From assembly GCA_022750195.1 (NCBI GenBank), contig JAKIWE010000001.1, positions 180,672 through 244,671 on the forward strand: a DNA stretch of 64,000 bases, written 5' to 3'. This document shows, in pieces, positions 12,509 through 29,741 of the stretch (position 1 is the first letter of the stretch; each line of letters opens with the position of its first letter). Source of the stretch: Thermoplasmata archaeon. Lineage in GTDB: Archaea > Thermoplasmatota > Thermoplasmata > Lutacidiplasmatales > UBA184. Under the pieces are notes generated by a model, which was not told where the DNA came from, ran no database searches, and worked only from the letters and a program-made list of their open reading frames with translations. Position numbers and translations under genes: made by a program.

Positions 12509-12525
12509 GTCCGGCCGGCTCGGAC

Positions 12526-12625
12526 GGAGGCCGGGGGAGCTGTGCAACGGCTGAGAGGACGGGACGCACCCGTCGACCCCACGAACCTGACCGGGGTAAT
12601 GCCCGCGAAGGGATCGCGATGGGTC
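12526..12625 (+). ncRNA. TPP riboswitch (THI element)
   Basis: The conserved blocks of the thiamine pyrophosphate aptamer are in the right order: GGGGG at 12533-12537, CTGAGA at 12551-12556, a variable P3a hairpin (GACGGG/CCCGTC, 12558-12575), ACCCC at 12576-12580, then AACCTGA at 12584-12590, CGGGGTAATGCCCG (P4 with its TAATG loop) and GCGAAGGGA up to 12613. P2 forms between the GGGG and CCCC blocks. I could not find a convincing P1 closing helix. It sits in the leader of thiBPQ, so TPP should lower transporter expression. Confidence 0.88.
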
Positions 12626-12639
12626 GTTTGAGAGCTCCG

Positions 12640-26937: not shown

Positions 26938-26955
26938 CGCCCGTGCTGGGATTCG
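26938..26955 (-). repeat. 18-bp direct repeat of the tRNA-Arg 3' end (putative att site)
   Basis: CGCCCGTGCTGGGATTCG is identical to 28180-28197, which covers the T-arm 3' half, acceptor 3' strand and discriminator base of tRNA-Arg. Same orientation, 1242 bp apart. This is the pattern left when an element integrates at a tRNA 3' end. Confidence 0.55.
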
Positions 26956-27170
26956 TTAGGCTTGGCACGCGAATCGACGTAACGGCACCCCACCGGAGGC
27001 CATTCAATCGACCCGTCGAGGCAGGGAACCCGCTCGCGATGGGCTTCGACCAAGCATTCTGGCCACGGGACTCCCTCTGCGGAACACGGACGGGGGGAGC
27101 CCCCTTCCGGCCGGACCCGAATTCGCCGCAGCTGGAGCCGATGCTCAAGTCCTGCCGGGTTCCTCCCCTC

Positions 27171-27743
27171 TCATCGGCGCCCGGCGGACGACCGCCGGGC
27201 TCCTGCGGCCTTTTTCAGCCGAGCCAATGCTCCTTCGACCTTTTCGTATCGGGCCTCGCTCTCGAGATAGTCCCAGTCGAGACTCCCCATCTTGGCGAGG
27301 GCGACCGCTTGGTCGAAGAGGGCGGTCGAGGATTCTCGCTCCGCACGCATCAGTCGGCGGATGATGAGGGGTTCAGGGGCGCTCAGCCTCACCGGCCCAT
27401 GCGGAGTTTGGATCGTCTGGGGAGGCAAGCCCGAGCGGTCCGCCAAACCAACCAGGTCGACAAGGCCGACCAAGATGTCGGTCCAATAGTGGCGGCGACT
27501 TCGGCCCTCGACCTCTCGGAATCCCCAGGCGCGGAGGACCGACTCGATGGCCGTTCGATCTCCGACGATATCGATGTCTTCGGAAGTGTAGGCCGAGGCG
27601 GTGAGGTAGATCTCGATGGCCGAACCCCCGACGACTTCTATCTCGGCGCCGACCGCGCGACCGAGGAGCGCCCCAAACCAAGCGACCCGTTCATCCGCCG
27701 ACCGCGCCGTCCGGATCGTCCTACGGAACTCACTGGCGTCCAT
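27171..27743 (-). CDS. Nucleotidyltransferase-fold protein (DUF6036/AbiEii-like)
   Basis: A 190-aa protein with the minimal nucleotidyltransferase signature: GGSAIEIYLTASAYTSEDID at about residues 38-57, that is G-G-x-A then T/S-x-D-x-D with the two metal-binding acids, followed by a later catalytic-strand region (DILVGLVDLVGLADRSG). This is the pattern of DUF6036 and AbiEii-type toxins. ATG at 27743 overlaps the end of the upstream regulator by 14 bp; an in-frame start at 27767 is also open. Pairing with a small DNA-binding protein suggests a toxin-antitoxin-like module, but neither activity is shown by sequence. Confidence 0.72.
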   Translation of the reverse strand: MDASEFRRTIRTARSADERVAWFGALLGRAVGAEIEVVGGSAIEIYLTASAYTSEDIDIVGDRTAIESVLRAWGFREVEGRSRRHYWTDILVGLVDLVGLADRSGLPPQTIQTPHGPVRLSAPEPLIIRRLMRAERESSTALFDQAVALAKMGSLDWDYLESEARYEKVEGALARLKKAAGARRSSAGRR

Positions 27744-28047
27744 GCGCTCTCCGGGGACGGAACCCAAGCCCGATCAGTAGCTCGTCCTTCTCCTGTCGAT
27801 GCTCCAGTTCCTCGCGTCTCAATTCGTCCCGGATAAAGTGCCGAAGGTGATCGTTCGTAAGCGACCAGCCGTTGTGGGTGTGCCGTACCAGGCCAGGCGG
27901 GAGCGCCTTGAGGATCCCGAGGACCTGAATCGGCTGCGCCCCGATCACCTTCGCCAGATGATAGGCGGAAAGGGGCTTAGAGGTCGAAGCGAGCGTCTCG
28001 AGGGTCTCGGCCCGGACTCGACCCCCGAACAGGCGGGAGGTACTCAT
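27730..28047 (-). CDS. Small winged-helix DNA-binding protein (putative antitoxin/regulator)
   Basis: A 105-aa protein. Residues 10-75 form a winged helix: TLETLASTSKPLSAYHLAKV (helices 1-2), IGAQPIQVLGILKAL (recognition helix), then LVRHTHNGWSLTN (wing). The tail is a charged helix (RDELRREELEHRQEKDELL). ATG at 28047 is 28 bp from a strong TATA box (28072-28079), so the mRNA is leaderless; the in-frame ATG at 28089 lies inside the promoter and is rejected. It overlaps the nucleotidyltransferase gene by 14 bp. By analogy with AbiE-type pairs it may repress the operon and neutralise its partner. Confidence 0.72.
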   Translation of the reverse strand: MSTSRLFGGRVRAETLETLASTSKPLSAYHLAKVIGAQPIQVLGILKALPPGLVRHTHNGWSLTNDHLRHFIRDELRREELEHRQEKDELLIGLGFRPRRAHGRQ

Positions 28048-28071
28048 GACCTTGAAGCATGTCGCATTTAC

Positions 28072-28098
28072 ATAATATACATTTCCCATAATATATCG
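28072..28098 (-). promoter_or_regulatory. AT-rich promoter of the regulator/nucleotidyltransferase pair
   Basis: Two TATA-like blocks, GTATATTATG (28071-28080) and GATATATTATGGG further upstream, form the most AT-rich patch of the region. The proximal block predicts transcription start at the ATG at 28047. The duplicated ATATTATG could also be an operator for the regulator. Confidence 0.55.
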
Positions 28099-28180
28099 GA
28101 TGGATCCGGGTAGAATGTCGACCCGGGGCGCGGGCGGGGTTCACCGGGAAGTAAACCAATCCGCCGAATTGCGGGACACC

Positions 28181-28285
28181 GCCCGTGCTGGGATTCGAAC
28201 CCAGGTCTGAGGCTCCGCAGGCCTCTAGGATAATCCATTGCAGCGGGATCGGTTGGTTCCGATCCCGTAGCTACCCCACACGGGC
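28181..28285 (-). tRNA. tRNA-Arg (GCG) with a D-loop insertion
   Basis: Read on the minus strand: acceptor GCCCGTG/CACGGGC, D-stem GGGT/ATCC, anticodon stem GAGGC/GCCTC with loop CTGCGGA (anticodon GCG, Arg), variable AGAC, T-stem CTGGG/CCCAG with loop TTCGAAT, discriminator G. CCA is not encoded. The D-loop is 41 nt instead of about 8-11: it contains a 9-bp hairpin CGGGATCGG-AACCAA-CCGATCCCG (28244-28267). The extra 30 or so nt are probably an intron at a non-canonical position. The 3' end is duplicated at 26938. Confidence 0.88.
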
Positions 28286-28466: not shown

Positions 28467-29741
28467 ATGGGCGAGGAGGTGACCGTCACGAACCCCGACG
28501 GACATCCCTGGCGTGGGCGTCTCGTGCCCGCCCACGAGCTCTCGGACCGCCGGGTGATTCAGCTCAAGCTCGAGAGCGGCTACAACGTCGGAGTGAGGAT
28601 CGACCCCGGCGCCAAAATCGAGCGTCACTCCGGGGCTTCGCGCGAACCGACGTCGGTGGTGGCTACGTCGAACACCCCTTCCCCTTCGGGTCCGGCCGAG
28701 GCTCGGCCGGTCGTGGTCCTTACCACCGGCGGGACGATCGCATCGCGGATCGACTACCACACCGGCGGCGTGCGGCCCGTCACGGACGAGCGCGAGATCC
28801 TCAATTTCTACCCCGAGCTCGAACACTCCGGCCCGGTCCGGGTGGTCCACGTGCTCGACAAGCTGAGCGAGGACATCTCGCGGGAGGATTGGATGACGCT
28901 CGCGCACCAGGTAGCGAACGCCTTCCAGGCTGGTGCTGGGGGCGTCGTCATCGCGCACGGGACCGACACGCTGCATTTCACGGCCAGCGCGCTCAGCTTC
29001 CTGCTCGGCGGTCTCCCGGGTCCGGTCGTCCTGGTCGGCGCGCAACGCTCTCCGGACCGGCCCTCCTCCGATGGGTTCTCCAACATGACCGCGGCGGTTC
29101 GCGTCGCCCGCGAGGCAGGCCTCTTCGAGGTGGTGGTGGTGATGCACGCCGGTCTCTCCGACGACCGCTGGGCGATCCACCGGGGAACCCGGGTGCGCAA
29201 GATGCACTCGAGCCGTCGTGACGCCTTCGCGAGCCGGAACGGGCCCCCGCTCGGGCTGCTCGCCAACGGGACCGTAACCTGGCAGTCAGATCGACGAAAG
29301 CGGTCTGGCCGGTCGTTGGAGGTCTCCCGGCCGCCGGACGGTCAAGCGGCCCTGCTGTGGACCTTTCCCGGGTTGGAGCCATCGCGCGCCGAGGCGTTCG
29401 TGGCCGGGTTGCGGGGGGTGGTGATCGCCGGGACCGGGCTCGGCCACACGGCGCACGACCACTTCGCGTGGATCCGGGCGGCGACCGAGCGCGGGGTGCT
29501 CGTCGCGATGACCACCCAGTGCCTCGCCGGCAGCGTCGACCCGTACGTCTACGCCACGGGTCGGGAACTGTTGAAGGCCGGCGTGGTCTTCGCAGGGGAC
29601 ATGCTGCCCGAGACGGCCTACACGAAGCTCCTCTGGGCCCTCGGGCAGAGCGACGACGCGGCCGAAGTGACGCGCCGGTTCCTGGAGGACCGGGCGGGGG
29701 AGATGGCGCCCCGGCGCACAGACACCGAGGCGGTCGGGTGA
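28467..29741 (+). CDS. gatD: Glu-tRNA(Gln) amidotransferase subunit D (asparaginase-like)
   Basis: GatD releases ammonia from glutamine or asparagine for GatE, which amidates Glu-tRNA(Gln); found only in archaea. The 424-aa protein has the small N-terminal beta-barrel (MGEEVTVTNPDGHPWRGRLV), then the L-asparaginase fold with nucleophile loop TTGGTIAS (86-93) and HGTDT (164-168). ATG at 28467 is the first canonical start, although the frame upstream to 28419 reads like a continued GatD N-terminus (LEILRRLP) without a start codon. Its stop overlaps the gatE GTG by 4 bp. Head of a four-gene operon. Confidence 0.94.
   Translation: MGEEVTVTNPDGHPWRGRLVPAHELSDRRVIQLKLESGYNVGVRIDPGAKIERHSGASREPTSVVATSNTPSPSGPAEARPVVVLTTGGTIASRIDYHTGGVRPVTDEREILNFYPELEHSGPVRVVHVLDKLSEDISREDWMTLAHQVANAFQAGAGGVVIAHGTDTLHFTASALSFLLGGLPGPVVLVGAQRSPDRPSSDGFSNMTAAVRVAREAGLFEVVVVMHAGLSDDRWAIHRGTRVRKMHSSRRDAFASRNGPPLGLLANGTVTWQSDRRKRSGRSLEVSRPPDGQAALLWTFPGLEPSRAEAFVAGLRGVVIAGTGLGHTAHDHFAWIRAATERGVLVAMTTQCLAGSVDPYVYATGRELLKAGVVFAGDMLPETAYTKLLWALGQSDDAAEVTRRFLEDRAGEMAPRRTDTEAVG

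Follow-up and report, generated by a model that had tools for sequence, protein, structure and literature searches.

The window, that is, the whole stretch of 64,000 nucleotides analysed, carries an intact tRNA-Arg(GCG) gene whose 3' end is repeated on the far side of a short two-gene unit. The features of this locus are the following:

26938-26955, plus strand: distal repeat, a putative attachment-site copy, exact match to the last 18 nt of tRNA-Arg(GCG) (pattern search)
26956-28179, no strand assigned: putative cassette, the 1224-bp unit between the repeats (sequence)
27171-27743, minus strand: nucleotidyltransferase (NTase) gene, 190 aa, MenT/AbiEii-like fold with a GGSA...DxD motif, predicted toxin
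27730-28047, minus strand: gene of a winged-helix protein, 105 aa (119 aa from an earlier start), predicted antitoxin or regulator
28180-28197, plus strand: proximal repeat, the tRNA gene's 3' end, T-loop through discriminator base (pattern search, alignment)
28180-28285, minus strand: tRNA-Arg(GCG), intact, with a predicted D-loop intron at about 28238-28268
28467-29741, plus strand: gatD, a conserved neighbouring gene serving as anchor of the tRNA locus across the genus

The 18-mer CGCCCGTGCTGGGATTCG occurs at 26938-26955 and 28180-28197 on the same strand with a period of 1242 bp, and pattern searches of both window and genome confirmed the original prediction of an exact, direct copy of the tRNA-Arg(GCG) end at this distance. 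With up to three mismatches allowed, the window holds two matches in total (0.25 expected), and two or more matches were obtained in 0 of 100 shuffles. In the 2.45 Mb of the own genome the window pair are the only exact copies; one copy with a single mismatch (contig C32) and one with two (C44) were also found, and the backward pattern had zero matches there. The rarity of the 18-mer in window and genome, together with the controls of the own-genome census of tRNA ends given below, rules out a chance repeat. We also rejected a larger element extending past 26938, the window having no further copy with up to three mismatches, and a Guanidine-II match at 27180-27212 (20.7 bits, cut-off 32) was taken as chance.

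The tRNA had been described as intact on one side of the unit, and a complete tRNA-Arg(GCG) is indeed present there. ARAGORN detected no tRNA in the window and Rfam listed none at its gathering cut-off, the tRNA-Arg scoring 27.9 bits at a looser threshold (cut-off 29), because the D-loop contains a hairpin insertion, predicted to be 31 nt long, on the minus strand. This hairpin is present in all 18 aligned sequences of the genus (the window and loci L036-L061), in which the tRNA body is near-invariant, and 7 of the 32 predicted pairs are altered on both sides, these compensatory changes lying mostly within the hairpin. The insertion is most plausibly a conserved non-canonical tRNA intron, which would be removed by splicing. 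Genome G022 seemingly has two complete tRNA-Arg(GCG) genes on different contigs, L073 (C6, tRNA end 7493) and L163 (C16, tRNA ending at 124), one of them adjoining gatD and the other located at the start of a contig and followed by an 8.7-kb unit bounded by repeats.

Between the repeats, the winged-helix gene overlaps the NTase gene by 14 bp, and none of the five places matched by the Pfam integrase model (PF00589) in the own genome is inside the unit, in agreement with the earlier claim that it contains only a regulator and a nucleotidyltransferase and no integrase. The NTase has the nucleotidyltransferase fold with the GS...DxD motif, as expected of a MenT/AbiEii toxin. Pfam gave no AbiEii match for it, PADLOC AbiEii reached an E value of 0.028 (below the strength demanded by the family-model cut-off), and the PDB profile match to the Rv1045 toxin has an E value of 0.34; aminoglycoside nucleotidyltransferases fit the fold about equally well. 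DUF6036 was matched weakly by 15 of 36 NTase homologues in Pfam (best 0.00032). MenAT and AbiE are toxin-antitoxin systems with nucleotidyltransferase toxins, as described in the accessible text of PMC10435456, PMC11541572 and PMC3985639; the window NTase is far from these families in sequence and its toxicity is only predicted. The two genes are predicted to form a toxin-antitoxin pair.

Homologues of the NTase were found in 40 of the 106 genomes of the order, and 42 loci, drawn from 64 matches, were examined. In 11 of them the gene lies no more than 1 kb 3' of a tRNA (Arg, Leu, Ala, Gln or Lys), against about one expected by a hand estimate, and in seven (L065, L133, L135, L136, L146, L147 and L155) it stands directly between copies of one tRNA end (Arg, Gln, Lys or Ala). 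At the other 31 loci, some of them cut by contig ends, no tRNA was found within 1 kb on the 3' side, which counts against the cassette account. The closest match listed to the window NTase (66%, G083) is located behind a tRNA-Leu. A protein search returned 106 proteins, the few with an organism name being Thermoplasmata, and viral contigs yielded no relative of the NTase (searched as a profile) or of the recombinase of G019 described below, so that no viral carrier was found.

The surroundings of the tRNA-Arg gene in related genomes combine a constant and a variable side. GatD was found in 35 of 41 genomes, and the tRNA end adjoins gatD in 18 of 20 loci of the genus, the other two running into a contig end nearby. 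Beyond the 3' end of the tRNA, most of 16 compared loci differ in their DNA, with some genes common to G001, G002, G009 and G020, one common to G009 and G012, and large repeat-rich proteins that match among several loci; the recombinase gene of G022 and G019 described below (431 and 478 aa, 42% identical) starts about 50 bp past the tRNA. A difference of about 0.3 kb between G001 and G002/G069 at this position is without a clear repeat and was set aside. When the 18-nt Arg end was searched with at most one mismatch in the 106 genomes of the order, the own genome included, 86 had a match and 64 of these, by hand count, a single one; extra copies on the same contig occur in 11 of the 86 genomes and amount to 14, all direct. 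The comparison proposed with the original prediction, which looked for empty sites or other cargo in relatives, thus gave both, single copies in the 64 genomes and different cargo between the repeats in others.

Similar arrangements are found at other tRNA genes. The tRNA-Gln end was matched in 84 of the 106 genomes, and eight of the 84 have 11 extra copies within 10 kb, all direct, a count that leaves out two own-genome copies 598 kb apart. Wherever a tRNA could be read in a row of copies it is the first copy (none was read in L165, L173 and L174), and copy spacings range from 0.75 to 12.8 kb. Rows of at least three copies are present in G066, G086, G099, G102 and G017 and, at tRNA-Ala, in G104; in G066, G099, G102, G017 and G104 they consist of small gene units in tandem between like sites, as in integrons. 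The window holds a single unit between its tRNA-Arg end copies and no row. Compared with their own tRNA, 31 distal copies keep identity, with one mismatch allowed, for 14-26 nt into the T-arm and mostly stop 0-2 nt past the tRNA end, a boundary at the discriminator that is partly built in because most distal copies were found with patterns ending there. In an unconstrained search of the own genome, six of seven copies reach the discriminator exactly or overrun it by at most two bases, and the seventh falls one base short of it; a Gln copy of G099 stops 7 nt short.

The unit ORFs scanned, 30 proteins plus 10 from own-genome units, are a subset of all unit ORFs. Cargo among the 30 includes RHH with PIN, VapB-like with ParE, AbiEii, Fic and methyltransferases, and also thymidylate kinase, NmrA, an FMN oxidoreductase and hemerythrin, with many proteins lacking a match and one being a PF00589 recombinase (G007, 5.7e-13). 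Many units between copies of the same or of other tRNA 3' ends had no integrase among the ORFs scanned. The window unit thus has numerous tRNA-anchored counterparts in the genus, of which some stand in tandem.

We next consider the own genome, where a census covered 32 tRNA genes, comprising 31 of 34 matches (two at a contig end and one fragment were dropped) and the window tRNA. Seven of the 32 have an exact direct copy of their own end, at least 13 nt long, within 8 kb downstream; the controls gave 0/32 for inverted copies, 0/32 for reversed ones and 13 of 990 pairings for the ends of other tRNAs. Units at Lys(CTT), Glu and Arg(CCG) encode an antitoxin with a PIN toxin, and with the window unit four of the seven are of the toxin-antitoxin type. 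Five of the seven PIN genes of this genome are found on the 3' side of a tRNA and no more than 1.5 kb from it, two of them behind the same tRNA-Lys, an enrichment with a binomial probability of about 8e-8 if they are independent. The effect is weaker in eight relatives, with 4 of 33 PIN genes downstream of a tRNA and one upstream (0.47 expected per side; 150 of the 255 tRNAs were listed by the tool, and one PIN match under the cut-off was dropped), which counts against a cassette interpretation.

Several comparisons bear on movement between genomes. The upstream flanks of tRNA-Gln align as one chromosomal place with 67-71% DNA identity in the compared pairs, while the DNA past the tRNA is 86.4% (G021/G096), 89.9% (G096/G017), 89.3% (G102/G017) and 86.4% (G099/G021) identical; at the level of aligned DNA, several tRNA-Gln units are thus shown to have a much higher identity between genomes than the flank adjoining that tRNA. 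The unit touching tRNA-Gln in G096 is the second one in G021, behind an HTH-NTase unit, and G102 and G111 have one unit in common from repeat to repeat (86.5%). The gene pair occurs at tRNA-Gln in G021 and at tRNA-Ala in G104 with proteins 74% and 82% identical. In the 96% identical genomes G002 and G001 divergence begins at the final nucleotide of tRNA-Gln; a search of G001 for the continuing part of the G002 element gave no match, so that this pair fixes the tRNA-side boundary only. Of the 70 internal ends in the full set of alignments, only 10 are no more than 25 bp away from a repeat, compared with 3.3 expected; at 85% identity or more the figure, by hand count, is 9 of 16, a subset picked after the rows had been seen and not independent. 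Some units are mosaic, L175 matching L173 in one part and L172 in another.

Tyrosine-recombinase genes adjoin the same tRNA ends in three relatives, at tRNA-Arg in G019 and G022 and at tRNA-Gln in G007, in the last case inside a 9.5-kb unit. The G019 and G022 recombinases matched Pfam weakly (0.024, under the cut-off) or gave no match, and no NCBIfam model matched that of G019; their assignment follows from the conserved R, K, YxxR, H and Y positions of tyrosine recombinases in three aligned sequences. For the G007 recombinase the integron-integrase model scored 20.5 bits (cut-off 265) and archaeal XerA was best with 54.1 (cut-off 220), both far under their cut-offs.

Three further places in the own genome were recorded. 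L120 (G000:C32:217284-217301) is an orphan Arg-end copy with one mismatch, about 14 kb from a recombinase gene, and its variant letters are those of the distal copy in the integrase-bearing element of G019. L235 (G000:C11:903756-904382) is an orphan exact copy of the tRNA-Gln end, 598 kb from the tRNA-Gln gene, adjoining a recombinase-gene fragment with an internal stop. At L210 (G000:C11:447714-448900) a tRNA with anticodon GAT is followed immediately on its 3' side by a tyrosine recombinase gene that faces it; a search over 8 kb gave no end repeat, and the gene possibly encodes a resident recombinase of this genome.

Considering these results, the locus is a real insertion footprint at a tRNA gene and one member of a recurrent set. 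Integration at the tRNA end, as originally proposed, is supported: both exact copies of the 18-bp motif in the own genome are in the window, and the gene pair is far from being at this place in all relatives, a related NTase standing at tRNA-Arg in only one of 15 other genus loci compared (G010) and, as found later, in G066. On balance, the 1.2-kb unit is probably a non-autonomous mobile cassette, likely inserted site-specifically at the 3' end of tRNA-Arg(GCG) and belonging to a genus-wide set, and since relatives hold other such pieces, alone or in rows, at several tRNAs, a mobile cassette system using tRNA docks is likely. In such a system a tyrosine recombinase of a resident element that uses the same tRNA end would act in trans on a circular cassette, and recombination within the T-arm/acceptor segment would rebuild the tRNA. 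Each integration would add one copy of the 3' end, by which cassettes could stack. The cargo may be kept as a toxin-antitoxin or defence module, in which the nucleotidyltransferase would act on the ends of tRNA or other RNA, like MenT toxins, and its winged-helix partner would restrain it. More tentatively, Lutacidiplasmatales might possess an integron-like system in which host tRNA genes serve as docks, their 3' end being both platform and cassette site, and resident tyrosine recombinases, acting in trans, capture integrase-less cassettes of about 0.7-3.5 kb and stack them, with toxin-antitoxin pairs as a leading cargo.

The unit could instead be the decayed remnant of a larger integrase-bearing element that lost its integrase and most of its genes and is now immobile. 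Integrase-bearing elements do use the same tRNA ends in relatives, several repeats have mismatches such as old copies would show, and the accessible text of PMC8371274 reads integrase-less archaeal elements as having lost the integrase after integration. We nevertheless consider such decay unlikely here, given that units of 0.75-2 kb, with compact gene pairs and intact repeats, are seen again and again at different tRNA genes and in rows, that the same pair is found at both tRNA-Gln and tRNA-Ala and that whole units are shared repeat to repeat with an identity above that of the flank; independent decay is less likely to have produced one compact form every time. Among the options offered by the original prediction, a non-autonomous element and a toxin-antitoxin cargo kept at a hotspot therefore fit together best, and a remnant is less favoured.

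Quite improbable is a route with no site-specific recombinase at all, in which incoming DNA carrying a tRNA 3' end would recombine by homologous or short-homology recombination and duplicate that end. No recombinase was found in the window unit, the near-identical tRNA bodies of the genus offer ready homology, and mosaic units such as L175 exist; the copies, however, are short (14-26 nt), always direct and, where the tRNA is readable, on its 3' side, and tyrosine-recombinase genes are present at the same ends in relatives. That the gene pair is an old vertical module of the locus, its 18-bp copy being fortuitous, is scarcely credible. The unit of G010 recurs in G066 within colinear DNA (78%), which indicates some vertical persistence of units, and no second repeat was found beside the NTase at tRNA-Arg in G010, a point against the cassette account; but the scarcity of the NTase at this locus, the position of the best listed match behind tRNA-Leu and the exclusion of a chance repeat by the pattern searches and the census all disfavour this alternative.

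The set to which the putative cassette of the window belongs resembles several known systems without coinciding with any of them. Islander islands, in the accessible text of PMC4383910, are likewise bounded by a directly repeated tRNA 3' end with an intact tRNA on one side, and tandem arrays of them are known (125 with two or more members and 4 with three or more, of 3919 islands); an integrase gene is required there for each island and each tandem member, and sizes peak at 13.6 and 39.9 kbp. The window unit has the repeat and the intact tRNA but, unlike those islands and the G007 unit at tRNA-Gln, no tyrosine integrase gene inside; it is 1.2 kb long, and such units form rows. Archaeal integrated elements likewise have tyrosine recombinases, tRNA targets, some members without an integrase and tandem integrations, including tandem casposons in thaumarchaea, and the portions of PMC8371274 and PMC6563490 concerned describe them as viruses, plasmids or casposons and not as 1-2 kb toxin-antitoxin units at several tRNA genes. 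In archaea, elements of 9-23 kb are known to leave tRNA fragments behind (PMC9897764, accessible text). Integron cassette arrays, including those of archaea, are alike in consisting of small units of one or two genes arranged in tandem, with short recombination sites between them, yet depend on folded attC elements read by IntI, whereas here the repeat is the tRNA 3' end (PMC9668308, accessible text). At the window unit neither attC nor IntI was found, the repeat being the T-arm/acceptor 3' half of the tRNA, and the sole Rfam match in the window that reaches the gathering cut-off is a TPP riboswitch. The cassette-like set is accordingly filed neither as an integron, no attC-type site having been seen, nor as an Islander-type island, there being no integrase inside. 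Tycheposons are elements of Prochlorococcus. Among titles and the opening lines of abstracts, a scope with subscription papers and preprints outside it, no description of integrase-less cassette rows at tRNA genes was found, nor do the consulted passages of the papers cited above describe toxin-antitoxin cassettes lacking an integrase in rows at several tRNA genes. The genus belongs to Ca. Lutacidiplasmatales, an order apparently included in the genome table of PMC9287336, and the words integrase, toxin and mobile are absent from the main text of that paper.

Because Islander, as described in PMC4383910, requires an integrase, finders of this kind discard such units, and a layer of archaeal gene exchange may go unseen. 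If the cassettes move in trans, tRNA genes would be capture platforms that work with neither attC nor IntI. This would account for toxin-antitoxin genes adjoining tRNA genes, as the PIN genes of the own genome do, and toxins predicted to hit tRNA (the MenT-like NTase and PIN) would make loss of the cassette, and perhaps of the dock, costly. Elsewhere in the window, the TPP riboswitch aptamer is located at 12523-12631 on the plus strand and scores 57.8 bits, above the Rfam cut-off of 54.3.
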